Source of the DNA: a virus
Virus record (IMG/VR): IMGVR_UViG_3300034093_001057
Coordinates: 26,121 to 90,120 of that record
Reading direction: 5' to 3' (one strand)
Length of the DNA: 64,000 bases
The first letter of the stretch is position 1. Each line of letters opens with the position of its first letter. Below the pieces are notes generated by a model that searched no databases, had not been told where the DNA came from, and saw only the letters and a list, made by a program, of their open reading frames with translations. Shown piece by piece: positions 6,001 to 57,998 of this stretch. The translations under genes and the position numbers were made by a program.

Positions 6001-9000
6001 CTCTGTATTGTAATCTAATATCACCAACGTTAACTGTTTCTAAGTCTTGGTTAAATGGATTGTTACTTAAGTTAACAGGTATTGTATAATATGCTTGATT
6101 ACTAACTTGGTTACTTAATATTAAAACTTCAATTGGTGTATCACTATCCAATTCAGAAACGTCTAATAATTCAATGATCGTAGAATTTGCAGTAATAGTG
6201 TATGAATATTCACTTACGCACTGGCAAGCATTGTTTATGTACACCTGTACACTAGTCCAAGAATCTTGACCTTCTACTTCAGATATAGCAGCAATGTCGC
6301 ATACAAATGTTGTACTAGGATTATCCTTTAGATATGTAAATTGAAATACTTGATACTGCGCACTAGGTGCTACCGCGGTTTGCCAACCTAATTCTCTAGT
6401 ATATTCAGTTCTGTCATCATAATTAAACACATAACCTGTGTTAACTTTTTGAGTTATAGGAGTAGTTCCAGTAACATAATCAAATGTATCAGTGTTTAAC
6501 GAAACATCAAAACTAATATCACCTACATTATCAATAGCACTGTATCTTATAGGAAATCCTAAAATAGGATCATCGGTTCCAGAGCCTATGCCATAAGAAA
6601 ATAATGTACAGCCGGCAAAAGAAGTACCTTGATAAATTGTTGGATCGCTAAAACTTATACCGTTTTCATCAAATACATCAAATAACGGTGCTTGATTTAC
6701 AGTAACTTTTTCTTGTGCTGTGATCCAATTATCGTTACTAAAATAATAAGTATTACCTTGATTATTATATCCTCTAGTAATAACTGCTTGATCATTTTCT
6801 TCACACAAACCATCCTGAGCTTCAGTTAATGTAATAACCGGTACTGATGATGGGGATAATTGAGAAAGTGCAACAACATATATTTTATTGCGTACATTCA
6901 CATCCGTGTCTGCTGCAAATATAATTCTTGCTCCAGAGAATATAGAGTAATTATTAACTGTAGTGTCTGTTGCAATAACGGCTACACTAGTAGCTGAGCC
7001 AACAGATTGTGATACGGCCCAAGACACTGTTAATACAGTGTTATTACCTGCTATGGTTATATTTGTAATTTGTGTGTTGTTAGGTAAAATATCTAAGTAA
7101 TCACTAATATACTGCCCAACTTGGAACGTTCCTACAATATCAGCAGTAGGAATAGTAATAGTAGTTGATGTTCCTACAACAGATGCTATAGATACTGTAT
7201 TTTCTGTATATACTTCTACATCAGGAAAATAATTGTTTAATCCTGCAATTTGCGATAGTGCATCAGTTGTTCTTTGATCAATGAAATCTACTGCATCTTT
7301 GCCACGAGTACCTGAGTTGAATAATCCTAAATTAGGATAAAATTCAATAATAGGTCTTCTTGCTTTATTTTCTGCTTTAGCGAATTCAGTAACTATTGAT
7401 GGATTATTATTATAAATCGCAGTTTGATTAATTACTTGCGAATGAAACCATCTGTTGCTTCTAGACCAAGCATTTTTGTTTATTGCGTTTCTAGCAATAG
7501 TAATATAATCTAAATCTGTTGGTATAAACAAATCACTATCAAAGTTTGATAAATCAAACGGAGTAGTATCAAACGGGACAAAGGTACTTGTAGTAAAATC
7601 TTCAGGTGATACTAATGTTTCAACTGAAATTAGTTCTATTGCCGAACCTACACCTTCTACGTAATATTGTCCGGATAAGTATCTTGACGGGATAACGTCA
7701 CCGTCAAATTCTACTTTTAGTCCATTAGTAAACACAACACCATTTGTTGAAGTGTAATTCTTTTTACCTAAAATATCAGTTTCTACATTTATAGTATTCG
7801 TGGTATTATTTTCAATTATTCTAATAATACCTACTTTGTTTGCAGAAGTACCATCTTGATAGTAAAGCTGATCAAGCGGTGCAGTAATATAAGGTACTAA
7901 AGAAACAACACCTAGCGTATTTCTATAAAATTGTCTGTCAATCCAAGTTGAGCCGTACGTAGCTGTTATTTTTTGTTCAGTTGGTATTAAACCGTCTGGT
8001 ATTAATCTTATAATTGGATTTGTAGGATCTGAGGGATCTACTACATAAGTAATTCTGTAAAAGTTTTCACTAACTGTTGTATAGAACCCTTCTTCATACA
8101 ATCCTTGATTTGCGTTAGCGGTCATTGTTCCGCTATCAGTAGTAAGCGGAAAAGTTGCTCCACCTAATGTATCAGAAATAGTAAATTCCGTAGAACTGTC
8201 TACACTTTTAATATAATAAATTGTACCTGCTGTTACTCCACCAAATACTGGATTGTTAAATGTAATAGTATTGTTAACTACTAGCTGACTAGTATTTCCA
8301 GTTGATAAAGTAAATCTATCAGTTGATGAATTAGAACTTCCTATTGTAACTACTAAAGGAGCTACTAATGCATTATCATTCGTATCAAATGAAGTTTCAT
8401 CGTAGTATGCAGAAATATAACCAATCTCATTAACTACACCTGTGTCATAAAACATAACACGTAAGTTGTTCAATGAAGTAATACTATCAATTGACCCTAA
8501 TGCTGACAACGGAGCACCGTTGACATCTTCAAATGGTAGTGTGCTTATCACATCAACTAAGTTGTTACCGGGGAATATAAACTCATCTTGTGCATCTTTA
8601 CTAGGTACTGTAAAAGTAACTACACCCTGAGTAGCTCCGTTATTACTAACACCATATACATCTCGTACCGGCAAATTAGGTTGAGTAGGACTGAATCCTG
8701 ATACACCGGGTTCTCCTTGTATCCAAAACTGTGATGGCTGATTTACTGTAAATCTATACGAACCACCTCTTAATAAAGTGATAGTAGGATTGGTACTGCC
8801 AGCAGAAGCTCCCAGTTCTCTTATATTATAACCATTAGCTAAATCAGTAACTATATAATCATTGGTTGAATAGACTAGTGCAGAAGACACAGTTACTGCG
8901 GGAGGACCAGTAGGTATCCAGTAATATTGATTGTAATTTACTATTTTGTCAAAATCAGTAAATGAATCCCATGAATAAATCTGACTTTCAAACAGTCTTG

Positions 9001-9322
9001 AATTATTATTAGTAATTCCTCCCTGCAATTCTAGTGCATCTAAAATACCGGGATAGCTAATAAAATCTTGAGCAGTTGACTGATTAGTTTTTGTAAATAC
9101 AACACCGGGATCTAGTTGATAGTCTGTTCTTGTTTTATTTGGTTCTGTTACATAATAATCATTAGCATTAACACCATAACCTACTTTACTACCAATATAT
9201 CCTTGTATCTTTTTTGTGATAGGAGGATTTACTAGCTGGTCTAGTGTTGCTGACAAAAACTCAGTGTTGGTTTTTGTTTGAAAAATTTCGGGAAGAAAAT
9301 TAAGAGTTCTTATTCTTGTCAT
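1..9322 (-). CDS. Giant virion structural protein with FG-GAP/beta-propeller-like repeats (3' end outside window)
   Basis: An open frame starts at ATG 9322-9320 (MTRIRTLNFLPEIFQ) and is still open at base 2, so more than 3,100 residues are visible and the C-terminus lies outside the window. I read the frame directly at 1-720 and at several lines spread over the rest and found no stop; not every codon was checked. The start has the look of the large structural protein that follows gp6 in marine T4-like phages. In the left third, segments such as YYGDVMVVGAPDKDYDG, WGSELAISGDQNWLYISD and SFGSKIVYAGNTYVISEP recur; these are FG-GAP/integrin-type beta-propeller blades. It begins 10 bases after the gp6 stop and is presumably co-transcribed with it. 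Likely role: baseplate-peripheral or fibre-attachment component. The structural role is an inference from family resemblance and position. Confidence 0.75.
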   Translation of the reverse strand, partial: MTRIRTLNFLPEIFQTKTNTEFLSATLDQLVNPPITKKIQGYIGSKVGYGVNANDYYVTEPNKTRTDYQLDPGVVFTKTNQSTAQDFISYPGILDALELQGGITNNNSRLFESQIYSWDSFTDFDKIVNYNQYYWIPTGPPAVTVSSALVYSTNDYIVTDLANGYNIRELGASAGSTNPTITLLRGGSYRFTVNQPSQFWIQGEPGVSGFSPTQPNLPVRDVYGVSNNGATQGVVTFTVPSKDAQDEFIFPGNNLVDVISTLPFEDVNGAPLSALGSIDSITSLNNLRVMFYDTGVVNEIGYISAYYDETSFDTNDNALVAPLVVTIGSSNSSTDRFTLSTGNTSQLVVNNTITFNNPVFGGVTAGTIYYIKSVDSSTEFTISDTLGGATFPLTTDSGTMTANANQGLYEEGFYTTVSENFYRITYVVDPSDPTNPIIRLIPDGLIPTEQKITATYGSTWIDRQFYRNTLGVVSLVPYITAPLDQLYYQDGTSANKVGIIRIIENNTTNTINVETDILGKKNYTSTNGVVFTNGLKVEFDGDVIPSRYLSGQYYVEGVGSAIELISVETLVSPEDFTTSTFVPFDTTPFDLSNFDSDLFIPTDLDYITIARNAINKNAWSRSNRWFHSQVINQTAIYNNNPSIVTEFAKAENKARRPIIEFYPNLGLFNSGTRGKDAVDFIDQRTTDALSQIAGLNNYFPDVEVYTENTVSIASVVGTSTTITIPTADIVGTFQVGQYISDYLDILPNNTQITNITIAGNNTVLTVSWAVSQSVGSATSVAVIATDTTVNNYSIFSGARIIFAADTDVNVRNKIYVVALSQLSPSSVPVITLTEAQDGLCEENDQAVITRGYNNQGNTYYFSNDNWITAQEKVTVNQAPLFDVFDENGISFSDPTIYQGTSFAGCTLFSYGIGSGTDDPILGFPIRYSAIDNVGDISFDVSLNTDTFDYVTGTTPITQKVNTGYVFNYDDRTEYTRELGWQTAVAPSAQYQVFQFTYLKDNPSTTFVCDIAAISEVEGQDSWTSVQVYINNACQCVSEYSYTITANSTIIELLDVSELDSDTPIEVLILSNQVSNQAYYTIPVNLSNNPFNQDLETVNVGDIRLQYRDIYVNAPGMLGQVFGSNNYRDLGNLVPYGTNIIQNSASLVLPGTFLRKTNHNLFDALQFNSNEYTKFKNLLVDTINNAEYVQRYTPSEILDQAIDIITAAKSESQAFFWSDMLPAKSPLRSNTYTFANNLDTSIYPLTTTYNFATANYNGVIVYLSRIISGVTIQKQLIINQDYVISQDAPSLTVTLDLIAGDKITIKEYNQTYGSYVPNTPTKLGLYPAYTPQVVLDTAYTQPTYFIKGHDGSYNKLYGSYNTNLGVLEDFRDQGLLEFETRIYNNLKLSSTVPIQTYEVLPGFFRDTDYTYSEFLQMYSESFLNWVGQNRLNYKTQVFSKVNEFTYNYTNAANKLTNTPIEQGYWRGVYQYFYDTTTPNATPWEMLGFTDQPTWWTERYGPAPYTSDNLILWNDLEQGVIWNDGVPITVETVARPGLTNIIPVDSAGNLVSPFVAIVGNYNPNTFQRDWKVGDDAPVELSYRRSSAYPFDLMRIFALMKPANFFNLGVDVDNYKYNLEFNQYLVNNRSHLVISDVEIYGSGTAKTSYINWIVDYEKQIGINATENITNLLDNLDVRLIYRLAGYSDKNLLKFYVEKGTPNSRNASLLIPDESYSLLLYDNQPFDRIVYSGVVIQITQDGYTVFGNSQTNAYFKVLKPVNNGKYNNIQVEDAQVKVAVDYTANELLIPYGAKFYSEQEVAQFLSSYGAYLTSQGMIFNDVLGGIEVNWDQMISEFLYWSQTGWEVGSILLLNPSAQTLKIDKESSIVQPLTVQNTNFVLNQNLYPIQAKDLSVFRNGTEFSVTALNQGDTVSYGQFNLSNFEHAVVFDNTTLFNDTIYNLITGLRQNRIYVRGTKTAEWNGTITASGFILNQDNIKEWSRAVKYTKGSIVLYKNKYWTALKVIEPSNIFNERDWKETDYDQIQKGLLPNSSTRSYESALYYDTNKANLENDADLLGFSLIGYRPRDYMALVDLTDITQINVYQNLIKNKGTRNAIEAFRGATLPQGGIEYEVYENWAIKSGEFGGLLNKNFVDFKINEQYLTGNPSIVSLTNGVYTPGSQQEVPIYSLFNYARPIDSPNILSTIDPSTPTQVYPDAGYVNFDDVKMSSYFYSGLPVARDKNNEPVLINDFYVRDYAWLANYLGNWDVLAWTSVGRVIAVRSNLNNTATITFAQPHGLVRLQPLSIINYATNVDGYYIVANIVNLNEVIINLPVATEIASTGQGIGLTFQSQRVSNPASINNLPLLDTEFVKNTVWVDESTDGSWAVYRKSLNYQYNNEVTKTNSTTFGSAVAYTDQAGYLISDASAGEVYRYAQDSANNYFIVETLTGGTSFGSKIVYAGNTYVISEPTTASEVHVYVINDSQLSDDFVLYQTIAAPGGVTDWGSELAISGDQNWLYISDIANDKVHVYQKQNILLNAGYFVSGQTYVITDLGTTDFTLIGAIESKVGITFVATGVGTGTGAATQITYKASTIINGVALSLVSSTDKFSKSITTNYYGDVMVVGAPDKDYDGNIANWGSAFAFSRAVQNIEVQFNTIGQTFQLAWTPITVSRTVSATNATGNLITLNSVSGIAVNDPIIFSGTGLLGTGIQGNSVYYIRSIAGSDITIKTSRSSITPEAISTVGSVSNVTATVQTSPLYVSRNGVIVQDNNYGVIGSTFVYSGTLTAGDIITVSDSKFTYAQTFTSNYNNRVGTQFGYSLDTIQSGSEILIGSPFEISDENQEGAVYRFTNAGAKFGLVTGVNECNVTAVRPLLINGYFVNVPIGNATVVANAINSANITNIQAAATVDNKLMIQVINTDLTQVNQKLIITAVDTTTLTELGIEIYTNTQVINCPHEFGPTQFGSVVQFNEYDSVVISAPVATRYEGTTFDFIDDEDFTNDTIFDNNATQFIDTAPNAGAVYMFDYISNYNENLTNIGEFVYAQSVNSKDIVYGFNPLYGTALDFNSNVVMIGTPNFLPDSVDGQVTIYENESGIKDWSIYRNSAPIVNIDSIQNAQLFSAETNNTLIN

Positions 9323-34397: not shown

Positions 34398-35594
34398 ATG
34401 TCAAAAATACTCTTAGAAAGCCGTTGGGACGAGACCAAAGAGGCCCTGTTAGAAGGCTTGAAAGGCACTCGCAAATCAACAATGGGTGTTATCTTAGAAA
34501 ACACCAAGAAGCAACTACTTGCTGAATCTTCAGCTGGTACAACAACTGCAGGCAACATTGCTACTCTTAACCGCGTAATTCTACCGGTTATCCGTCGTGT
34601 AATGCCAACTGTTATTGCTAACGAACTAGTTGGTGTACAACCAATGACTGGTCCCGTTGGTCAGATCCACACGTTACGTGTACGTTACGCTCAGTCATTG
34701 ACTGATACTTCAGCAGCATCAACTTCTGTTACTGCTGGTGAAGAAGCACTAAGCCCGTTCAAAATTGCACAGGCTTATTCTCGTGTAACTAATGCTGCAA
34801 CTACTACTGATCAGTACACTGGTGCTAACACTGCTACTTTAGAAGGTAACGGCGGTAAGCAAATTTCCGTGCAAATCTTAAGACAAGCTGTTGAAGCTAA
34901 GTCACGTAAGTTGCAAGCACGTTGGACTTTTGAAGCTGCTCAGGACGCACAGTCACAGCATGGTATTGATGTAGAAGCAGAGATCATGGCTGCTCTTGCA
35001 CAAGAAATCACCGCTGAAATAGATCAGGAAATTCTATTGTCATTGCGTACTCTTGCTTCAACTGAGTTCACTTACAACCAAGCTACTGTATCAGGTACTG
35101 CTACTTACGTTGGTGACGAACACGCTGCTTTAGCTGTGTTGATCAACCGCGTTGCAAACTTGATTGCACAGCGTACCCGTCGTGGTGCTGGTAACTGGGC
35201 TGTTGTATCTTCAGCAGCATTGACTGTTCTACAGTCTGCAACTACTTCAGCATTCGCACGTACTACTGAAGGAACTTTTGAAGCTCCAACTAACACTAAG
35301 TTTGTTGGTACTTTAAACGGTGCAATGCGCGTATTCGTTGACTCTTATGCTCCAGACACTACTCCGGTATTGGTTGGATATAAAGGTTCAAGCGAAACTG
35401 ACGCAGCAGCATTCTACTGCCCATACATTCCATTGATGAGCAGCGGTGTTGTACTTGATCCAAGTACTTTCGAACCAGTAGTTAGCTTTATGACCAGATA
35501 TGGTTATATTGAATTGACGAACACTGCATCCTCGTTTGGTAATGCGGCGGATTACGTTGGGGAAATTGCGGTCCAGAACTTAACATTCCAATAA
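34398..35594 (+). CDS. gp23: Major capsid protein gp23
   Basis: Protein of 398 residues, shorter than T4 gp23 (521) and similar to marine T4-like versions. The HK97 fold is announced by NRVILPVIRRVMPTVIANEL and VQPMTGPVGQIHTLRVRYA, with EIDQEILLSLRTLA, RRGAGNWAVVSS and SFMTRYGYIEL further on. The expected gp21 cleavage is after LLAE43, before SSAGTT, removing a helical propeptide. Codon use is less AT-rich than in neighbouring genes, with more GCT/GCA/CGT, as expected of a highly expressed gene. Ribosome site AGGAG; two terminators follow. Confidence 0.96.
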   Translation: MSKILLESRWDETKEALLEGLKGTRKSTMGVILENTKKQLLAESSAGTTTAGNIATLNRVILPVIRRVMPTVIANELVGVQPMTGPVGQIHTLRVRYAQSLTDTSAASTSVTAGEEALSPFKIAQAYSRVTNAATTTDQYTGANTATLEGNGGKQISVQILRQAVEAKSRKLQARWTFEAAQDAQSQHGIDVEAEIMAALAQEITAEIDQEILLSLRTLASTEFTYNQATVSGTATYVGDEHAALAVLINRVANLIAQRTRRGAGNWAVVSSAALTVLQSATTSAFARTTEGTFEAPTNTKFVGTLNGAMRVFVDSYAPDTTPVLVGYKGSSETDAAAFYCPYIPLMSSGVVLDPSTFEPVVSFMTRYGYIELTNTASSFGNAADYVGEIAVQNLTFQ

Positions 35595-35711: not shown

Positions 35712-36482
35712 ATGTTCAACAACACAAAATATACAAAGCTTTACTATCAAATCATAACACCAACTCTGAACAGAGAGTTGAATACATATAAAGAACTACA
35801 TCATATTATTCCACGATCATTGGGTGGAACCGATGACAAAGATAATCTTACATATCTAACCGCTAGAGAACATTTTATCTGTCATTGGCTTTTGGTAAAG
35901 ATGACTGAAGGACAAGCTAGAAGTAAAATGATCTATGCGCTACAAGGTATGAGAGCACAAAATGATAGTCAGCAGCGTTACGAAACAAAGATAACCTCTA
36001 GAGTATATGAACACTATAGAATAGAACACGCTAGAATACATTCTGAAACAATGAAAGGAAAACCTGCTTGGAACAAAGGCAGAAAACTAGAAGGCGATGA
36101 ACTAGAAAGACAAAGAGAAAGAACTAGAAATAGAAAGATAGACCCTGTCAAACAAGCAGAAGGTCAGCTAAAGAGAATTGCGAAAGTTACTGGAAGAAAA
36201 GATTCTGAAGAGACTAGGTTAAAGAAAAGTACCGCACATAAAGGTAAATCAAACGGTCCTATGAGCGAAGAAGAGAAGTTAAAACGATCAGTTGCTAATA
36301 AAGGAAAATCTAAACCGGAAGGATTTGGTGATAAAGTTGCTGAAAGAATGAGAGAAGAGTTTTCTTACAATAATCCTAATAGAAGAGCCGACCTTAAGAA
36401 AGTTTGTGAGCATTGTGGAATTAAAACTGGACCTAGTAATTATACACGCTGGCACGGAAACAACTGTAAAGAAAAAACCTAG
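35712..36482 (+). CDS. HNH homing-type endonuclease with NUMOD3-like repeats
   Basis: Protein of 256 residues. The N-terminal HNH domain shows YKELHHIIPRSLGGTDDKDN and LTAREHFICHWLL, keeping the two adjacent histidines and the asparagine. The middle is basic and carries repeats of the NUMOD3 DNA-binding type (AWNKGRKL, AHKGKSNGPMSEEEKLKRS, ANKGKSKPEG). A possible zinc finger CEHCGIKTGPSNYTRWHGNNC ends the protein. It stands alone between the gp23 terminator and the next operon with no intron detectable around it, so it is probably a free-standing homing endonuclease of the kind common in T4-like genomes. Confidence 0.85.
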   Translation: MFNNTKYTKLYYQIITPTLNRELNTYKELHHIIPRSLGGTDDKDNLTYLTAREHFICHWLLVKMTEGQARSKMIYALQGMRAQNDSQQRYETKITSRVYEHYRIEHARIHSETMKGKPAWNKGRKLEGDELERQRERTRNRKIDPVKQAEGQLKRIAKVTGRKDSEETRLKKSTAHKGKSNGPMSEEEKLKRSVANKGKSKPEGFGDKVAERMREEFSYNNPNRRADLKKVCEHCGIKTGPSNYTRWHGNNCKEKT

Positions 36483-36509: not shown

Positions 36510-36803
36510 ATGATAGCTAAAGACAGTCAAGTAGTTGAAGTATTAGAAGATGGCACTTTTTATGCATTTGACTTAGAAGTGTGTGATCGTGAAGCAGAAA
36601 AAGCATTAAAAAACTTACTGAAAAAAGAAGGCAAACTGTTTAACTATGATTATGGTATGACAGTGTTTACTCTATTTGTGTATTGTGTTCATATCTTGCG
36701 TGAAGCGGGTTGGGAAACAGAAGAACTAGTTAACGAAGTATTAGATCATACTGCAATATATGACGGTACTGATGATGACGATGACGAAGATAACGAAGAA
36801 TGA
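36510..36803 (+). CDS. Conserved acidic protein of unknown function
   Basis: Protein of 97 residues. Not assigned to a family with known function. Visible: a helical core FDLEVCDREAEKALKNLLKK, then NYDYGMTVFTLFVYCVHILR and EAGWETEELVNEVLDH, and an Asp/Glu tail. It overlaps the QueC-like gene by four bases (ATGA), suggesting co-translation and maybe a linked role. No signal peptide; the hydrophobic helix is probably buried rather than membrane-spanning. Confidence 0.6.
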   Translation: MIAKDSQVVEVLEDGTFYAFDLEVCDREAEKALKNLLKKEGKLFNYDYGMTVFTLFVYCVHILREAGWETEELVNEVLDHTAIYDGTDDDDDEDNEE

Positions 36804-37495
36804 AATTATTATTAGGTCCTGAAAATTTACAAACTGAACTTGACTTCACTCTTTTTAAAAAGAAGGGTCCATTTTATATAGTTAATAATACAATATCTGC
36901 TCATGTAAAAAGAATTGGTGTTTACGTATCAGGTGGATTAGATTCTACTGCTCTTTTGTGTTTGATATTAAGTGAGTTGAAAAGTATTGACAAGTTACAT
37001 GAAATAGAAGTAGTTTGTTTTACTATAGAAAAAAGCGATGGTCCAACTTATTATGCAACACAAGTTATTGAACAAGTAGAAAAGCATTTTAATGTTAAGC
37101 TAACACATATTAACAACATAAAAAATGATCCTATTCCAGACTTAACTGGAAATATTGGACCAACGCCTATAAAAGAAATTAGAGATTACGATCCCAACAA
37201 TATGATTATATTCATGGGTATTAATCGTATGGCTCCTCCTGAATTAAAAACTTATACTTATCCATTGAAAATAGATTATGGATATCAAACTCAAGGGTAT
37301 CATTATAATTCACCATTTTTGTTCTTACATAAACCACAAATACTAGATATCTATTATAAGTTAGGTTGTGAAAATATTATACCCTATACGCATACCTGTA
37401 CTCAACTTGAAGTGGGCCAATGCGGTATTTGTTACTCTTGTGAAGAAAGAGCTTGGGGTTTTGAAATGCTCGGTAAACAATATGTTATATCCTAA
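36800..37495 (+). CDS. QueC-like PP-loop enzyme (7-cyano-7-deazaguanine synthase family)
   Basis: Protein of 231 residues, the same length as E. coli QueC. The PP-loop SGGLDST is at residues 44-50 and binds ATP. C200, C208, C211 and C214 have exactly the C-x7-C-x2-C-x2-C spacing of the QueC zinc site, followed by EERAWGF, compared with the RRxGF end of QueC. QueC converts carboxy-deazaguanine to preQ0 with ammonia and ATP. Phages use preQ0-type bases to modify their DNA. No QueD, QueE, FolE or transglycosylase is visible in this window, so the substrate is uncertain; a different amide- or nitrile-forming PP-loop reaction is possible. It lies just downstream of the capsid genes. Confidence 0.7.
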   Translation: MKLLLGPENLQTELDFTLFKKKGPFYIVNNTISAHVKRIGVYVSGGLDSTALLCLILSELKSIDKLHEIEVVCFTIEKSDGPTYYATQVIEQVEKHFNVKLTHINNIKNDPIPDLTGNIGPTPIKEIRDYDPNNMIIFMGINRMAPPELKTYTYPLKIDYGYQTQGYHYNSPFLFLHKPQILDIYYKLGCENIIPYTHTCTQLEVGQCGICYSCEERAWGFEMLGKQYVIS

Positions 37496-43450: not shown

Positions 43451-45448
43451 ATGGCAGAAACAAAATTAAATTCTATACAAGGCTTCTCGGTAGGACCTAA
43501 TAGCGTAGCTGTAATAGATATAAATTCTAATGTAGCGGCAGCTGCTATTACTGCCAATGGGAATGTTACCTTTACTGGATCAAATGTATCTTTAGGTAAT
43601 GTTTCTAATCTTCATATATTAGGCGGTAATGCTAATCAAGTTTTATCTACAAATGGATCAGGTAACTTATCGTGGGTTGATCCAACCGCCGGAGGTGGAA
43701 ATGCTATTGTTACGATCAGTACTACTCCTCCCGGATCTCCGGTTAATGGGCTACTTTGGTGGGATAGCGAGGATGGTAATAGCTACATAAGATATGATGA
43801 CGGTAATTCAACGCAGTGGGTTTTATTTGCTAGTTTAACTGCTACAATAGGCGCTACTGGTATAACAGGTGCTACTGGTATAACAGGTGCTACTGGTGCC
43901 TCGGGTGCTACAGGTATTACTGGTGCTACTGGATCAGGCGCAACTGGTGCTACTGGCTTAACAGGTGAAGTAGGTGCCTCGGGTGCTACAGGCCCAACTG
44001 GTGCCACTGGATCAGGCGCAACCGGTGCTACTGGCTTAACAGGTGAAGTAGGTGCCTCGGGTGCTACAGGCCCAACTGGTGCTACTGGATCAGGCGCAAC
44101 TGGTGCTACCGGATTAATAGGTGCTACCGGCATTCAAGGAACTCCAGGAGGTGCTACCGGGGCTACCGGCGTAGGTGCCACTGGTGCTACCGGTGTTCAA
44201 GGAGAAACAGGTGCCACTGGAACAGGCGCTACTGGTGCTACTGGCTTAACAGGTGAAGTAGGTGCCTCGGGTGCTACCGGCGTAGGTGCCACTGGTGCTA
44301 CCGGTGCTACCGGCATAGGTGCCACTGGTGCTACCGGTGTTCAAGGAGAAACAGGTGCCACCGGATCAGGCGCTACTGGTGCTACTGGCTTAACAGGTGA
44401 AGTAGGTGCCTCGGGTGCTACAGGTATTACTGGTGCTACCGGTGTGGGTGCCACTGGTGCTACCGGATTAATAGGTGCTACCGGCATTCAAGGAACTCCG
44501 GGAGGTGCTACCGGTGCAACTGGACTCAATGGAGTAGACGGAGCTACCGGCGCTAGCGGACCTGCAGGTAGCCCCGGCGGGGCTACAGGTGCTACCGGTG
44601 CAACTGGACTCAATGGAGTAGACGGAGCTACCGGCGCTACTGGATTATCCGGATCCAGGACGTATAATGTAACAAATAGTGGAGCTAGTGCATTTACAAT
44701 TGATGGTTCAAATAACCCTGCACTGTATTTGTTACGAGGATTTACATATGTATTTTCGGTAAATGCAAGCGGTCATCCATTTTGGATAAAAACTACACCA
44801 GTTACTGGTACAGGCAATGCTTATTCTAACGGAGTAACAAATAACGGCACTGCTGTCGGAACTATAACGTTTGCAGTTCCTTATGATGCACCTAGCACTT
44901 TATATTATATATGTCAATTTCACTCAGCAATGCAGGGTGTAATTAACATTAGTGACGTAGGACCAACCGGAGCAACAGGTGCTACTGGACCGATAGCGGG
45001 TAGCAACACTCAAATAGTGTTCAATGATGCCAGCACTGCAAATGGTAGTGCTAATTTAACTTTCAACAAAACAACTTCAGTATTAACGGTTACAGGCAAT
45101 ATTAGCGTTGCAAATATAACATCTTCTTCTTATTCTATTGCATCAGTGGGAACAGGAATTTCAGCGGCAGGCACTGTACAATCAAATGCAACCGGGCTTA
45201 CAACACAATTTAATGTAGTATCAACTGTAGCTTCAAGTGAAGGAGTTAGATTACCAAACGCTATTGCCGGCATGAGAATAACAATCTTAAATACGAGTGC
45301 TAATTCGTTATTAGTTTATCCAGAATCCGGCGGTATAATAAATTCACAATCAGCTAATGCTGCGTACTCTCAACCAGCCGGCGCAAGACTAGATTTTATA
45401 TCTACTACTACTACTCAATGGTATACTTTGAATGCTACATATAGTTGA
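43451..45448 (+). CDS. Collagen-like fibre protein with cupredoxin-like domain
   Basis: Protein of 665 residues. The N-terminus [15 protein letters not shown] is shared with the two preceding fibres. Residues about 133-400 are collagen-like Gly-X-Y repeats, mostly GAT, GIT and GAS. Residues about 400-505 form a beta domain ([38 protein letters not shown]) with H442, C488, H491 and M494 in the order of a type-1 copper site; this is the cupredoxin-like module found in some marine phage fibres. One [20 protein letters not shown] bead and a C-terminal beta domain follow. It would be a trimeric rod with head domains for host binding. Copper binding is an inference. Confidence 0.75.
43850..44645 (+). 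repeat. Collagen-like Gly-X-Y coding repeats
   Basis: About 265 consecutive Gly-X-Y triplets' worth of sequence (roughly 88 triplets of residues) built from GGTGCTACTGG-type 9-bp words. Longer blocks of 90-100 bp, for example at 43960-44060, recur nearly unchanged, so the array is prone to expansion and contraction. Confidence 0.85.
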
Positions 45449-50826: not shown

Positions 50827-51282
50827 ATGTTTTATATTAAATTAGATGAAAATAATAATCCAATGAATCATCCAATGTCAGGAGACAATCTCAAAGACGT
50901 ACTGGAAGTAGCTTATTTGGACGATAATGTTTTAAAAGAATTTGGATATGCAAAATTTGAACGTTTCAAAGACGCACCAAATGCAGTGACCATTCACACA
51001 ACTGATTATTACATGGATACAGACGGAGTAGTCAGAAATCGGGCGTCTGTTCGTGAGTTTACACAAGAAGAGCTTATTGATCAGTTTATTAGAAGGCGCC
51101 GCAGTTATTTACTAGCAGCATGTGACTGGACTCTAGCAGTAGATAGTCCTTTATCTGCGGAGAAAAAAGAAGAATGGGCAAATTACCGTCAAGCTTTGCG
51201 AGACCTTACATCGGTTTATAGCACAGCACAGTCGGACAGTGATGTTATTTGGCCTACTGAACCAACCAAGGGTAATTCATGA
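50827..51282 (+). CDS. Tail fibre assembly chaperone-like protein
   Basis: Protein of 151 residues. The C-terminal half FIRRRRSYLLAACDWTLAVD and KKEEWANYRQALRDL is the pattern of small phage tail-assembly chaperones (RxxLLxxxDWTxxxDxxL...WxxYRQxLRDL). The N-terminus YIKLDENNNPMNHPMSGDNL is a short beta module. It follows the adhesin gene by 14 bases with an AGGAG site, the usual place for a fibre chaperone, and overlaps the oxygenase start by four bases. Confidence 0.7.
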   Translation: MFYIKLDENNNPMNHPMSGDNLKDVLEVAYLDDNVLKEFGYAKFERFKDAPNAVTIHTTDYYMDTDGVVRNRASVREFTQEELIDQFIRRRRSYLLAACDWTLAVDSPLSAEKKEEWANYRQALRDLTSVYSTAQSDSDVIWPTEPTKGNS

Positions 51283-51923
51283 GTACTTTTTTAAGTGGAA
51301 TTTTTGCAACACCACTACTTATTGGAAATAGTCACGATATTGATATTCGTGAAAAAATTTGTGCGCTGGCGTTACAGTTTAGAGAGAATGCACACGATGC
51401 AAAACTAGTGTCTGAAGGATGGAATTACGGAAGATCATCTTCTTCTCAGGAAGATTTTAATCAATACGGAGTTACATCTTTTAGTTCACAGTCTCTTTTG
51501 GACGATCCTGACTGGAAAGATGTAATGACTTTTTTATATGACTTTGCTAATGCAATGATCGCCAGTGTAAATAATACAACCGGTGTTATGTCGTTTGTTA
51601 ATAGCTGGGTTACGATATATCCACCGGGCACGTATATACCAGAGCATATTCATTCAAATTCAATGTTGAGTGGAGTGTTTTATGCAAAAGTACCTGAGAA
51701 AGCGGGTAACCTTTTATTTAAAGATCCTTCTGCTGTGGCTAAAACTATGTACACTCGTCACTATAATGATTTTCCTACAGTGCCTACTATACACACTCAT
51801 GTAGTGGAAGAAGGGCAAATGATTATTTTTCCTTCTTGGCTTCCTCATATGACTGAGATCAACAAGTCCCAGGATAATCGGATTATGGTAAGTTTTAACA
51901 TTAATATGATTGATCCTGAGTAA
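51279..51923 (+). CDS. 2OG-Fe(II) oxygenase, phage/marine type
   Basis: Protein of 214 residues. Blocks YIPEHIHSNSMLSGVFYAK, GNLLFKDP, GQMIIFPSWLPHMTEINK and NRIMVSFNINM fit the 2OG-Fe(II) oxygenase family common in marine phages. Candidate iron ligands are H123 or H125 and H190, and R201 would hold 2-oxoglutarate. Start overlaps the preceding chaperone-like gene by four bases. Substrate unknown; location at the end of the fibre operon suggests hydroxylation of a fibre protein or a host surface component. Confidence 0.75.
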   Translation: MSTFLSGIFATPLLIGNSHDIDIREKICALALQFRENAHDAKLVSEGWNYGRSSSSQEDFNQYGVTSFSSQSLLDDPDWKDVMTFLYDFANAMIASVNNTTGVMSFVNSWVTIYPPGTYIPEHIHSNSMLSGVFYAKVPEKAGNLLFKDPSAVAKTMYTRHYNDFPTVPTIHTHVVEEGQMIIFPSWLPHMTEINKSQDNRIMVSFNINMIDPE

Positions 51924-51950
51924 TAAAAATTAAATCACGGTTTCATTATT

Positions 51951-51958
51951 ACTAAATA
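51951..51958 (+). promoter_or_regulatory. Late-promoter-like octamer ACTAAATA
   Basis: ACTAAATA in the 97-base gap between the two oxygenase genes, 62 bases before the second ATG. A GTTTGGTTG segment with AACAATCAAC upstream could form a short hairpin in the leader. Confidence 0.35.
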
Positions 51959-52020
51959 AAAAACAATCAACTAGTGTTTGGTTGTTTAACTAAGACGTAA
52001 CTTTTTACCGGAGATTTTAA

Positions 52021-52566
52021 ATGTTTAACGATGCTTACTGGGCATGGGACGGTGTATTAGACAAAGCTTTTTGCGAGTATGCACTTAACCGGCTTGACTG
52101 GGATAAAGCTGACGAAGCACGAGTACGAGAGACCGGAGTCCCGGCAGATCCTTCAGTCCGAATCACGCAAGTTTTATGGGAAGAATACACTTCTCCTATT
52201 GCAGCAGTTGCTTTTTACTATACTCATCTTGCTAATAAACTAGCAGGTTGGAAATTTCAAATTGATTACCCTCAACAAGTGCAAATAGGACGGTACGCAA
52301 AAGATGGTCACTATGACTGGCATATTGACGCTCAATTACCTGATACTGAGGGGTTTCAACGTAAGCTAAGTTGTTCTATTCTATTAAATGATGCTTCAGA
52401 ATACGAAGGAGGAGATTTGGAGATTAGAGGAGTTAAAATAGCACCACCTAAAACACGCGGCACAGTTATTGTATTTCCGTCTATACTAGAACATCGTGTT
52501 CTTCCAGTGACGGAAGGTGTTAGGTATTCTGCTGTTTGTTGGACTATGGGGCCTGCTTTTACGTAA
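52021..52566 (+). CDS. 2OG-Fe(II) oxygenase, prolyl-4-hydroxylase type
   Basis: Protein of 181 residues. The double-stranded beta-helix iron site is complete: H101 and D103 in GHYDWHIDAQ, H158 in PSILEHRVLPV, and R168 in GVRYSAVCW for 2-oxoglutarate. EYEGGDLEIRG and GTVIVFPS are further P4H/PiuC-family blocks. In phages such enzymes are proposed to hydroxylate fibre or tail proteins; the collagen-like Gly-X-Y fibre upstream is a possible target, although its triplets contain little proline. Unrelated at the primary level to the preceding oxygenase. Confidence 0.82.
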   Translation: MFNDAYWAWDGVLDKAFCEYALNRLDWDKADEARVRETGVPADPSVRITQVLWEEYTSPIAAVAFYYTHLANKLAGWKFQIDYPQQVQIGRYAKDGHYDWHIDAQLPDTEGFQRKLSCSILLNDASEYEGGDLEIRGVKIAPPKTRGTVIVFPSILEHRVLPVTEGVRYSAVCWTMGPAFT

Positions 52567-52672: not shown

Positions 52673-53212
52673 ATGACGTTAAAAGAACAAACTAAAGATT
52701 TACACGAAATAGCAGAAAAAAATCCATTTGCTCAACGACTTCTTTCAGGTAATATATCTAACACCGAATATGCATGTTACTTAACTAACCTAGAACCTAT
52801 TTATAATGCAATTGAAAATTTAGCAGAAAACAGTGGCATACTTATTGATGGCATAGTTCATATAAAGAGAACAGAACTAATTCGTGAAGATTTAGCAGAA
52901 TTAAAGCAACTAGGAGCAAATCATTACGTAATATTTGAATCTACTTGCAGGTATGTTGATTATCTTAATCAACTTGATAAAGGTAAGATACTTGCTCACT
53001 TATATACCAGACACTTTGGTGATTTATACGGCGGGCAAATTTTAAAAACTAAAGTTCCGGGTAAGGGAAAAATGTACGAGTTTGTTGAGCGAAAAGCATT
53101 GATTGATAAAACACGTATGATGCTTAGCGATGATCTTGGACCCGAAGCACGAATAGCATTTCAATATGCGATATATCTTTTTGAGGAACTTACTAATGAG
53201 TTTAATATTTGA
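52673..53212 (+). CDS. hemO: Heme oxygenase
   Basis: Protein of 179 residues, shorter than cyanobacterial Ho1 (about 240). The proximal helix holds H11 in LKEQTKDLHEIAEKNPFAQR, and the distal helix has YTRHFGDLYGGQILK, the conserved GDxxGGQ of heme oxygenases. It opens heme to biliverdin IX-alpha, CO and iron using reduced ferredoxin. Its end overlaps the bilin reductase start by 17 bases, so the two act as a unit. Comparable pairs are known from cyanophages (ho1-pebS) and from uncultured marine phages (hemO-pcyX). The 106-base gap before it has no octamer that I can name. Confidence 0.85.
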   Translation: MTLKEQTKDLHEIAEKNPFAQRLLSGNISNTEYACYLTNLEPIYNAIENLAENSGILIDGIVHIKRTELIREDLAELKQLGANHYVIFESTCRYVDYLNQLDKGKILAHLYTRHFGDLYGGQILKTKVPGKGKMYEFVERKALIDKTRMMLSDDLGPEARIAFQYAIYLFEELTNEFNI

Positions 53213-53864
53213 TAAATTGTTACAACACGCAAGTGAATTTCAAACTATACTAAATACATTAGACCGATCTGACGAAGTACATGAGTTTCCTTGGGACAAT
53301 TTGGTTTATACTTCTAAGTATATTAGGCGGGCCCACTTAGACATAGTAGACAAACGAGAAGATCGTAAATTGCTAATGATGCATTTATGTGTTTTTCCTC
53401 ATACTGACTCAGATGCACCTATATACGGGTTTGATCTAATTGCGGGTCCTAATAAAGTTACAGGAGCATTTCATGACTTTAGTCCTTGTACTAATAACAA
53501 CTCTTCTCATCCTCTTAGTGAATTATTTGCTGGAGAAGTAAAAAAATATTCATGGTCAAAACAGCGTGAACTGCCTGAATGGGCTAAAAAAATATTTAGT
53601 CCTTGGATGGTTGCAGCAGGTAATATTAAAGATATTGACGAACTTTCTGAAGTACTTGAGCTATCTAAAAATAATTTGATTTCATATATTGAATGGATGA
53701 AAACTAACTATGCTACAAGTGATCAAGACTATACACAACAACAAAACAATTATTGTATTAATCAAAAGCAAAATCCGCATACTCCTCGTGTAATGGAAAG
53801 TTTAGGTTATGATCCAGATACTGTCCAAAAGTTTATACAAAATTGCCTTTTTCCGGAAGTTTAA
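53196..53864 (+). CDS. pcyX: Ferredoxin-dependent bilin reductase, PcyX-like
   Basis: Protein of 222 residues from ATG 53196, chosen because GAGGAA lies 7 bases upstream; an in-frame ATG at 53166 lacks a site. H63 in LMMHLCVFP and D80 in PIYGFDLIAG have the 17-residue spacing of the PcyA catalytic pair H88/D105. The last 40 residues (YCINQKQNPHTPRVMESLGY) align with the PcyA end rather than with PebS. The position of PcyA E76 is V51 here, which argues against phycocyanobilin formation. This fits the PcyX group, which reduces biliverdin to phycoerythrobilin. Subfamily assignment is by eye. It needs host ferredoxin; none is encoded in the window. Confidence 0.8.
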   Translation: MSLIFDKLLQHASEFQTILNTLDRSDEVHEFPWDNLVYTSKYIRRAHLDIVDKREDRKLLMMHLCVFPHTDSDAPIYGFDLIAGPNKVTGAFHDFSPCTNNNSSHPLSELFAGEVKKYSWSKQRELPEWAKKIFSPWMVAAGNIKDIDELSEVLELSKNNLISYIEWMKTNYATSDQDYTQQQNNYCINQKQNPHTPRVMESLGYDPDTVQKFIQNCLFPEV

Positions 53865-53921: not shown

Positions 53922-54365
53922 ATGAATGCTTTTCAACTTGAATTTTACACTAGACTTAGAGCTTGGAACAACCTAAGAACTGACCTAATACATTTGCCAC
54001 TGCACGAAAAATGTGTTGAAGTAGATAAGTTTTGGCAACAGTGTCCAGAAACAACACATTATTTACATCCAGCAGATATAAAATCATGGCCTGATCCATG
54101 GCAGTTATTAGATGATAATATGTATTGCCCATATGCTAGAGCATTGGGCATAATTTATACTTTAATTTTATTGGGAATAACCGACATTGACTTAGTAGAT
54201 GCTATTGATTATAATAGTGTATCTGTGGTATTAGTCATGGTTGATAGCGCAAAATATGTACTTAATTACTGGCCCGGCACTGTAGTAAATAATAAACTCA
54301 GCGACTTCACTGTAGTTAGACACTATGACATAACACCCATCATTCAAAAAACAGGAACACTATGA
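53922..54365 (+). CDS. Conserved protein of unknown function before nrdA
   Basis: Protein of 147 residues. I do not recognise a functional family. It has aromatic, Pro-rich blocks LHPADIKSWPDPWQLLDDN, then YCPYARALGIIYTLILLGI, and a beta-rich end VLNYWPGTVVNNK. Single Cys residues near 37, 55 and 69 do not form a clear metal motif. The gene overlaps nrdA by four bases (ATGA), so it is translated with it; marine T4-like phages often carry similar small genes near nrdA. Confidence 0.55.
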   Translation: MNAFQLEFYTRLRAWNNLRTDLIHLPLHEKCVEVDKFWQQCPETTHYLHPADIKSWPDPWQLLDDNMYCPYARALGIIYTLILLGITDIDLVDAIDYNSVSVVLVMVDSAKYVLNYWPGTVVNNKLSDFTVVRHYDITPIIQKTGTL

Positions 54366-56680
54366 AGATTTACGTTACTAAAAGATCAGGGAACACAGAG
54401 CCCTTGACCATTGAAAAATGGCAACAGCAAATAGCTACTATATGCAAAGGAACAGCAGATGTAAGTCAATCAATGATTGAAATCAAAGCGCAGCCGCACT
54501 TTTTTGATGGTATTACAACAAGCGACATTGATGAAATAACACTAAGAGCTATCGTAGACTTAATTGATGTAGAAAATAACCCAGACGTTGGGCACACAAA
54601 CTATCAGTATGTAGCTGGTAAGCAACGTTTATCAATGCTAAGAAAAGATGTTTTTGGTCAATATCAACCTCCCCACCTTTTTGAAATTGTAAAAAAGAAT
54701 GTAGCCACTGGGTTGTATACACCAGAATTATTAGAATGGTATACAGAAGATGATTGGAATAAGATGAATGATATTATTGATCATGAGAAAGATGAACAGT
54801 ATTCTTATGCCGCCATTGAACAATTGATTGAAAAGTACTTAGTAAAAAACCGCGCTACAAAAGAAATATACGAAACACCTCAGATCAGATACATGATCGC
54901 AGCAGCTACAGTATTTCACAAAGAAGAACCCAACTCAGCAAGAATGCGATACATTCGTGAATACTATAACGCTTCTAGTGACGGCTTGTTTACACTAGCT
55001 ACTCCAGTATTAGCAGGATTAGGCACTCCAACTAAGCAGTTTAGTAGTTGCGTATTGATTAAAACAGACGATGATCTTGACAGTATTTTTGCTTCTGGTG
55101 AAATGATGGCCAAGTATGCTAGCAAACGCGCAGGCATTGGGTTAGAAATTGGTAGACTTAGACCTTTAGGTTCTCCGATCAGAGGAGGTGAAGTCATGCA
55201 CACTGGTATGATTCCTTTCTTGAAAAAATGGTTTGGTGATCTTAGATCCTGTTCACAGGGAGGAATCAGAAATGCTTCCGCCACTATCACATATCCGATT
55301 TGGCACTATCAGTTTGACGATCTTATTGTACTGAAAAACAATCAAGGCACAGAAGAAACTCGCGTAAGACACATGGATTACAATGTAGTCTTATCAGCAT
55401 TCTTTTGGAGACGATTTAAGAACAAAGAAAATATTACATTCTTTGACCCCAACGAAGTACCTGATCTTTATGAAACTTTTTACAGCGATACTAAAAAGTT
55501 TGAAGAACTGTATGTAACGTATGAAAAGCGTAAAGACTTGCGTAAAAAAACAATGAATGCTGAAGATGTATTCAAAAGTGGTATTCTTAAAGAACGCACA
55601 GACACTGGTAGAATTTATTTAACCTTTATTGACAACGTACAAAATCAAGGACCGTTTGATACCAGTTATCATACGATTTATCAATCTAATCTTTGTCAAG
55701 AAATCTTGTTGCCTACTAAGTCATTTAAACGATTAGATGATGATAAGGGCCGAATCGCCTTATGCACCTTGGGCTCAATTAATTGGGGAGCATTTAGAAA
55801 TCCAGAAGATATGCGCAGAGCATGTAGAATTCTTCAGCGTAGTTTATGTAATATTCTTGACTATCAGGATTTCTTGTCTATTCAGTCTAAATTAAGCAAT
55901 GATGAAATTCAACCTCTTGGTATTGGTGTTACTAATTTAGCATATTGGCACGCTAAACGTAGTTTTAATTATGGTGAACAAGACTCTTTACAAGAAGTTA
56001 AAAGCTGGATGGAACATCAAGCATTTTATCTAACTGAAGCAACTGTAGAACTTGCTAAAGAACGAGGCAAGTGTGTAGATTCAGATAAAACTTGGTATGG
56101 TCAAGGTATATTTCCCTGGGAACGTAGAGCTAAAGGTGTTAACGAATTAGCAGACTTTACTCCCGAATTAGATTGGGAAGCACTTAGAGAACAAATGAAA
56201 ACATATGGTGTTAGAAATGCTACTCTAATGGCAATTGCTCCAGTAGAAAGTTCGTCTGTTGTAATCAATAGTACTAATGGTATTGAAATGCCCATGAGTT
56301 TGATTACAGTAAAAGAATCTAAAGCAGGTAGTTTTATTCAAGTTGTTCCAGAATATCACAGATTGAAAAACAAGTATCAGTTAATGTGGGATCAAACTAA
56401 TTGCGTTGACTACTTAAAAACAGCAGCAGTCTTACAAGCTTATGTGGATCAAAGCATAAGTACTAACACGTTTTATAACCCAGCACACTTTGCAGACAGA
56501 AAAGTACCTACAACAATGATTGCTGCAAACTTGATGTTGTTTTATTACTGGGGCGGAAAGACACTTTATTACAGCTTGATTAATAAAGCAGGATCTAAAG
56601 CTGATGCAGAAGAATTACCCCAGATGTTAGAACCCGTTAATTACGATGAAGAAAGTGATTGCGAATCATGCAAATTATAA
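54362..56680 (+). CDS. nrdA: Ribonucleoside-diphosphate reductase, large subunit (class I)
   Basis: Protein of 772 residues; T4 NrdA has 754. The active-site cysteines C230 (FSSCVL) and C468 (ALCTLGS), the radical triad N443, C445, E447 in SNLCQEIL, and the tail pair C767/C770 (CESCKL) that shuttles reducing power are all present. Residues 1-90 include an ATP-cone-like region KRSGNTEPLTIEKWQQQIAT. The enzyme makes deoxynucleoside diphosphates for phage DNA synthesis with NrdB, reduced by the glutaredoxin at 59531. No intron or intein interrupts it. Confidence 0.96.
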   Translation: MKIYVTKRSGNTEPLTIEKWQQQIATICKGTADVSQSMIEIKAQPHFFDGITTSDIDEITLRAIVDLIDVENNPDVGHTNYQYVAGKQRLSMLRKDVFGQYQPPHLFEIVKKNVATGLYTPELLEWYTEDDWNKMNDIIDHEKDEQYSYAAIEQLIEKYLVKNRATKEIYETPQIRYMIAAATVFHKEEPNSARMRYIREYYNASSDGLFTLATPVLAGLGTPTKQFSSCVLIKTDDDLDSIFASGEMMAKYASKRAGIGLEIGRLRPLGSPIRGGEVMHTGMIPFLKKWFGDLRSCSQGGIRNASATITYPIWHYQFDDLIVLKNNQGTEETRVRHMDYNVVLSAFFWRRFKNKENITFFDPNEVPDLYETFYSDTKKFEELYVTYEKRKDLRKKTMNAEDVFKSGILKERTDTGRIYLTFIDNVQNQGPFDTSYHTIYQSNLCQEILLPTKSFKRLDDDKGRIALCTLGSINWGAFRNPEDMRRACRILQRSLCNILDYQDFLSIQSKLSNDEIQPLGIGVTNLAYWHAKRSFNYGEQDSLQEVKSWMEHQAFYLTEATVELAKERGKCVDSDKTWYGQGIFPWERRAKGVNELADFTPELDWEALREQMKTYGVRNATLMAIAPVESSSVVINSTNGIEMPMSLITVKESKAGSFIQVVPEYHRLKNKYQLMWDQTNCVDYLKTAAVLQAYVDQSISTNTFYNPAHFADRKVPTTMIAANLMLFYYWGGKTLYYSLINKAGSKADAEELPQMLEPVNYDEESDCESCKL

Positions 56681-56897: not shown

Positions 56898-57998
56898 ATG
56901 TCAAAACAACAGTATAACTTAGAAACAAAAACAGATTACTTGTCAAGAAAGATGTTTTTAGATCCCGCAGGTCCGGTAACTATTCAAAGATTTGAAGAAT
57001 TTAAGTATCCCAAAATTGCCAAGCTGGAAGAAACTGCTAGAGGCTTCTTTTGGATCCCCGAAGAAGTTTCACTAACGAAAGATGCACAAGATTTCAAAGA
57101 TGCCAGTGACGCGGTCAAACATATTTTTACTAGCAATGTTTTAAGACAAACTGCACTTGATAGTTTACAAGGCAGAGGACCCAGTCAAATCTTTACTCCT
57201 GTTATTTCACTACCTGAACTAGAAGCATTAGTTTACAATTGGACTTTTTTTGAGACAAATATTCATAGCAGAAGTTATAGTCATATTATTCGTAATATTT
57301 ACAATGTACCAAAAGACGTTTTTAACACTATTCATGACACGCAAGAAATTATTGATATGGCGTCAAGCGTAGGTCAATACTATGACAAGCTACATGTGCT
57401 TAACTGTAAAAAAGAGCTAGGTCACAAGATTGACGAAAAAGAACATATCAAAGCTATTTGGATGGCACTAAACGCCAGCTATGCATTAGAAGCATTTAGA
57501 TTTATGGTATCTTTTGCTACTTCATTAGCAATGGTTGAGAACAAGATTTTTATTGGTAATGGAAACATTATTAGCTTGATCTTACAAGATGAAATTTTAC
57601 ACAAAGATTGGACTGCTTATATCATTAACCAAGTAGTAAAAGAAGATCCAAGATTTGCTCAAGCTAAACAAGAATGCGAACAAGAAGTTTATGCTCTTTA
57701 TATGGATGTGATCAGAGAAGAAAAAGCATGGGCGGATTACTTGTTTAAGAAAGGCCCGGTTATTGGCCTCAATGCTAATATTTTAAAAGAGTTCGTAGAT
57801 TATACTGCTATGAATGCGTTAAAAGAAATAGGTATTAAGTATCAGTCTAGTGCTCCTAAGTCTACTCCAATTCCTTGGTTTAATAAGCACTCGTCAACAA
57901 GTAACAAACAAACTGCACTACAAGAAAACGAAAGCACAAACTATGTTATAGGAATTATGTCTAATGACGTAAACTATGATGAATTACCCGATTTATAA
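56898..57998 (+). CDS. nrdB: Ribonucleoside-diphosphate reductase, small subunit (class I)
   Basis: Protein of 366 residues. Iron ligands and the radical tyrosine are visible: D88 (ALDSLQGRGP), E119, H123 and Y127 in WTFFETNIHSRSYSHI, then the second half with DEILHKDW. The E-to-H spacing is one residue longer than in E. coli (D84/E115/H118/Y122); D88 to E119 keeps the E. coli distance, so a single Asn is inserted between E and H. The C-terminal NDVNYDELPDL is the NrdA-docking peptide. Coupled operon with nrdA. Confidence 0.94.
   Translation: MSKQQYNLETKTDYLSRKMFLDPAGPVTIQRFEEFKYPKIAKLEETARGFFWIPEEVSLTKDAQDFKDASDAVKHIFTSNVLRQTALDSLQGRGPSQIFTPVISLPELEALVYNWTFFETNIHSRSYSHIIRNIYNVPKDVFNTIHDTQEIIDMASSVGQYYDKLHVLNCKKELGHKIDEKEHIKAIWMALNASYALEAFRFMVSFATSLAMVENKIFIGNGNIISLILQDEILHKDWTAYIINQVVKEDPRFAQAKQECEQEVYALYMDVIREEKAWADYLFKKGPVIGLNANILKEFVDYTAMNALKEIGIKYQSSAPKSTPIPWFNKHSSTSNKQTALQENESTNYVIGIMSNDVNYDELPDL

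Follow-up and report, generated by a model that had tools for sequence, protein, structure and literature searches.

The window analysed here comprises 64 kb of a 90-kb viral record; the same sequence recurs, at 100% identity, within a 267-kb contig (G001). It contains two overlapping genes, hemO and pcyX, which encode a predicted heme oxygenase and a ferredoxin-dependent bilin reductase (Table 1). Both reading frames are intact, and the 17-bp overlap named in the original prediction was found. A GAGG sequence lies inside hemO, shortly 5' of the pcyX ATG. The overlap probably couples the translation of the two genes, and the second enzyme would be made beside the first. Between pairs of relatives, the dS of pcyX is 0.35-1.3 and the dN 0.02-0.13; this excess of synonymous over replacement changes indicates strong purifying selection.

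Table 1. Features of the window around the hemO-pcyX pair, with the capsid gene.
Feature	Position	Strand	Match or basis
T4-like major capsid protein	34398..35594	+	phrog_138, E 7e-99
2OG-Fe(II) oxygenase	51279..51923	+	phrog_81
2OG-Fe(II) oxygenase, directly upstream of hemO	52021..52566	+	phrog_61
hemO, heme oxygenase, 179 aa	52673..53212	+	PF01126 (Heme_oxygenase), E 1.8e-18
hemO/pcyX frame overlap, 17 bp (pcyX ATG at 53196, hemO stop ending at 53212)	53196..53212	+	sequence
pcyX, ferredoxin-dependent bilin reductase, 222 aa	53196..53864	+	PF05996 (Fe_bilin_red), E 6.8e-24
147-aa protein, predicted ORF between pcyX and nrdA	53922..54365	+	also accompanies the pair in L006
nrdA, class Ia ribonucleotide reductase large subunit	54362..56680	+	phrog_84, E 2.1e-266
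nrdB, ribonucleotide reductase small subunit	56898..57998	+	phrog_86, E 9.1e-114

Gene neighbourhood

The closest isolate by nrdA is the Xanthomonas phage X1 (60%). In the locus of one near-identical relative (L006), the pcyX protein is 99% identical to that of the window, and the 147-aa gene and nrdA are also common to both. The homology between this locus and the window begins at hemO codon 4 (window 52673-52682), and the upstream oxygenases are gone. Such a break suggests that the tail-fibre and oxygenase module upstream of hemO may have been exchanged as a block in this locus. We rejected the idea that the pair depends on the adjacent 2OG oxygenases, since L006 does without them.

Several other features of the window were observed. 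A collagen-like tail-fibre protein with internal repeats (43451-45448) is encoded near the two 2OG-Fe(II) oxygenases (51279-52566), which might hydroxylate it. A structural-looking ORF of more than 3100 aa (2-9322, minus strand) runs off the window. A homing endonuclease and a weak QueC-like match follow the capsid gene (35712-36482 and 36800-37495). The motif GATAAATA, near the T4 late promoter TATAAATA, occurs at 11 sites in the window, including 31316, 35683, 37919, 45447, 45862, and 45872, and for several genes it lies no more than about 60 bp upstream. The count is twice that expected by chance, and was reached by 6 of 100 shuffles. No late-promoter-like motif was found upstream of hemO.

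The heme oxygenase and the bilin reductase

HemO matched heme oxygenases among the PDB sequences, from an E-value of 1.3e-9. The proximal His11 and the distal-helix GDLYGGQ motif (residues 116-122), both noted in the original prediction, are present and conserved. The AlphaFold model of HemO, built with an alignment of its relatives, has a pLDDT of 93.8. Its best fold match is the Synechocystis HO-1 (1we1; TM 0.81 by query), and its significant fold matches are heme oxygenases. The protein thus has the fold, the proximal His, and the GDxxGG distal helix of the HemO/HO-1 heme oxygenases.

The closest solved sequence to the reductase is PcyX_EBK42635 (PDB 5owg; E 1.5e-56), which beats PcyA (E 2.6e-14) by about 42 orders of magnitude. 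In a phylogenetic tree of 48 rows, the reductase fell in one clade with a further 40 PcyX-like rows, 5owg and the protein of Pelagibacter phage Mosig among them. This clade was separated from the PcyA enzymes of cyanobacteria and cyanophages with a support of 100/100, as expected for the PcyX-like enzyme that had been predicted. The PebS enzymes are so divergent that they fell on a very long branch without a reliable position, and the tree was built without them. Its nearest neighbours in the tree are viral contigs, with at most 69% identity. Closest to PcyX among the PcyA enzymes of alphaproteobacteria is the AX clade (PMC10151467), which is absent from this tree; the border proposed here between PcyX and the AX-clade PcyA rests on residues. 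The AlphaFold model of the reductase (alignment of relatives; pLDDT 91.9) has significant fold matches only to bilin reductases and the related red chlorophyll catabolite reductases.

The residues compared in the reductase are Asp49, Asp52, His63, and Asp80. His63 and Asp80 sit at the positions of PcyA His88 and Asp105, and are common to PcyA and PcyX. The original prediction had aligned Val51 with PcyA Glu76. This assignment is wrong: Glu76 (HLE) aligns with Asp49 (HLD), and the mistake came from counting back from the histidine across two extra residues in PcyX. The equivalent of Asp49 in 5owg is chain position 63; allowing for an 8-residue tag on the chain, this would be the published Asp55. 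With this assumed tag subtracted, Asp49/His63/Asp80 correspond to Asp55/His69/Asp86 of PcyX_EBK42635. Asp55 is the PcyX-specific catalytic residue, which the phycocyanobilin-producing CB_2 enzyme lacks (PMC11480375). The presence of Asp49 therefore supports phycoerythrobilin as the product. Assignment of the protein to PcyA was rejected, because Asp49 occupies the Glu76 position and the protein lies outside the PcyA clade.

The active site was also compared among 97 distinct relatives. Position 49 is Asp in 95 of them, Cys in one, and Glu in one. Asp52 and His63 are kept in all 97, and Asp80 in all 96 scored, with one gap; neither His63 nor Asp80, the two residues first predicted, was lost in any relative scored. 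Sequence, structure, and tree support both enzyme identities and the intact active sites. Two PcyX-like proteins that differ at position 49, with the PcyA-like Glu (L055:2389-3048) and Cys (L045:3753-4400), are candidates for a different bilin product.

Carrier phage and distribution

The T4-like structural genes predicted to share one sequence with the pair were found. The portal, protease, capsid, late sigma factor, and recombination genes are all T4-like. In the capsid tree, the window protein formed a clade with Phosso, Vibrio phage 2.275.O, and PA5oct (100/100). This clade lies far from Mosig, the cyanophages, and four further PcyX carriers, across a very long branch. Its capsid and portal are closest to those of phages of Vibrio, Pseudomonas, Sinorhizobium, and Agrobacterium. 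Judged from these sequences, the carrier is a jumbo T4-like phage of the PA5oct/Phosso lineage, with a contig of 267 kb or more. Either the cassette was transferred between deep T4-like lineages, or it was lost many times.

The hemO-pcyX cassettes are already published and common. A single-sequence scan of IMG/VR recovered 59 loci, and a profile scan recovered at least 548 stretches with such cassettes. hemO precedes pcyX in 96 of the 97 distinct loci; the remaining one is cut at a contig end. The two frames overlap in about 82 of the 97, most often by 17 or 20 bp; the start codons were chosen by alignment, and a few overlap lengths are uncertain. This order and overlap indicate that the pairing is not due to chance. 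Genes for tail fibres or sugar modification usually precede the cassette, and neck and terminase genes follow it in about a third of the loci. hemO and pcyX are separated in some loci by another gene, such as a 2OG-Fe(II) oxygenase (L100, L108), a gene for a 286-aa protein (L041, L044), or a nitrilase-like gene named by eye from its sequence (L078, L079). Hsp20 and ClpS-like genes are also present in the last two loci, which are MAG contigs labelled Neomarinimicrobiota and Rickettsiales and are probably phage contigs binned into MAGs. The search for cellular PcyX returned only two marine MAG contigs, both phage-like. Among 385 genomes sampled from the class to which the Rickettsiales MAG belongs, no PcyX or PcyA was found beyond that MAG contig; one genome with two clear matches contained distant reductase homologues. 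The plasmid search gave no match.

The window pair was compared with known systems. The PcyX_EBK42635 cassette has the same family, active site, and directly upstream hemO; however, the two reductases lie on separate branches within the PcyX clade, and the window phage belongs to another T4-like lineage. Mosig (EXVC030M, MT647606) also has an overlapping pair (14 bp), located behind 2OG-Fe(II) oxygenases and downstream of tail-fibre genes. Its PcyX shows 45% identity to that of the window, and its HemO only 31%. Mosig is a 141-kb SAR11 phage in which neck and terminase genes follow the pair, whereas in the window's jumbo phage nrdA and nrdB lie downstream. The freshwater phage CB_2 has a similar combination of hemO and bilin reductase (vHemO and vPcyA), and its proposed host is non-photosynthetic (PMC11480375). 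CB_2 contains alaS and makes phycocyanobilin; in contrast, alaS (TIGR01821) gave no match in the 20 carriers searched, including the 90-kb and 267-kb contigs of the window. The pair was not assigned to the valaS-hemO-pcyA/X cassettes, as no alaS lies in or near it. The cyanophage PebS (P-SSM2) and PcyA share the superfamily and fold of the window reductase, but they lie on separate tree branches, in phages with cyanobacterial hosts and photosystem genes.

The original prediction had described such pairs as coming from uncultured marine phages. The hemO-pcyX pair is indeed known, but the cultured SAR11 phage Mosig carries it (PMC11480375), and hemO-pcyX or pcyA cassettes have been reported from freshwater too. 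As Mosig already carries the pair, its link with T4-like structural genes is not itself new. The novelty lies mainly in the type of carrier phage and in the hint of a non-photosynthetic host. All the contigs retrieved in the earlier study clustered with pelagiphages by gp13 (PMC11480375). A PA5oct/Phosso-type carrier looks like an addition to those known; none was found reported in a search with most subscription papers outside its range. The range of hemO-pcyX now extends beyond pelagiphage-type phages to jumbo phages of a T4-like lineage; the closest relatives in culture infect ordinary proteobacteria. Culturable phage-host systems might answer what phycoerythrobilin does in a non-photosynthetic cell.

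Predicted reaction, host, and benefit

We interpret the pair as an auxiliary metabolic cassette of two genes in a T4-like jumbo phage. HemO would convert heme to biliverdin IXalpha, CO, and Fe2+. PcyX would then reduce biliverdin to phycoerythrobilin, a pink pigment, via 15,16-dihydrobiliverdin, with electrons from the host ferredoxin. Phycoerythrobilin is proposed as the product by analogy with the characterised PcyX. We regard the two enzymes and this heme-to-phycoerythrobilin reaction as highly probable, a judgement that excludes the benefit. The reductase might instead make phycocyanobilin. This pigment was demonstrated as the product of the freshwater phage CB_2 (PMC11480375), which has hemO and a pcyA/X gene whose enzyme is placed between the PcyX and PcyA groups, and His63 and Asp80 do not distinguish PcyX from PcyA. 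However, the CB_2 enzyme is without Asp55, whereas the window has the equivalent Asp49, and both the closest solved sequence and the clade are those of PcyX. This makes phycocyanobilin a very unlikely product.

The 267-kb contig contains a permuted tmRNA with the tag ANDEFALEDIRLAA (168987-169409, which is L070:8987-9409, minus strand). It scores above the Rfam cut-off for tmRNA_permuted, and its best score in the clan is beta_tmRNA, though under that model's own cut-off. Permuted tmRNAs of alpha or beta type were also found in five other PcyX carriers. Among the control phages, Mosig and Phosso, which infect alphaproteobacteria, have alpha-scoring tmRNAs, and the Xanthomonas phage X1 has a beta-scoring one; no permuted tmRNA was found in six cyanophages. 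The OM43 phage Melnitz has an alpha-like tmRNA, so tmRNA type and host can differ (PMC9004378). The X1 and Melnitz results weaken the tmRNA as a firm host marker, and its beta type is a moderate hint. These observations weakly favour a non-photosynthetic proteobacterium, perhaps a betaproteobacterium, as host. No photosystem reaction-centre gene was found, in line with the predicted absence of photosystem genes: the 267-kb contig gave no match to PF00124 (photosystem), CpeT, phytochrome PHY, or Fer2 ([2Fe-2S] ferredoxin), although fragments cannot prove absence, and psbA was recovered in both cyanophage controls. This argues against light harvesting and for the use of a host ferredoxin. A cyanobacterial host, in which the pair would sustain the phycobilisome pigment during infection, would match the accepted role of the cyanophage pebS and pcyA, also carried by T4-like phages. 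It is highly improbable given the relatives of the capsid and portal, the missing psbA and CpeT, and the beta-scoring tmRNA.

For the benefit, our first guess is that host heme is turned over, which would free iron and dispose of biliverdin. This guess is weakly held, and falls somewhat short of an even chance. Iron supply has also been discussed for such phages (PMC11480375). The iron-using neighbours count against this reading, as the upstream oxygenases are not obligate. Moreover, iron release needs hemO alone, yet the full PcyX active site is kept, which suggests that the bilin itself matters. The pair may feed a light-related target, such as a host bacteriophytochrome or other bilin-binding protein that gains or loses its chromophore in infection. 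This proposal concerns the benefit, and is compatible with the predicted reaction. Among 97 relatives, 95 retain the bilin-making active site, beyond the need of iron release, and the CB_2 enzymes can load a phytochrome (PMC11480375). However, no phytochrome PHY domain was found among 12 carriers, and a light-related target is considered unlikely. A bolder reading, and quite an unlikely one, is that phycoerythrobilin acts on host regulation in a non-photosynthetic cell, perhaps by supplying a bilin-binding protein such as a bacteriophytochrome with chromophore or by depriving it; the bilin would then be a molecule of host takeover instead of a pigment for light harvesting. The implied horizontal transfer between deep phage lineages might suggest that the genes are nonfunctional, either decayed or carried by accident. 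This is scarcely credible, being contradicted by the intact frames, the invariant active sites, and the strong purifying selection.
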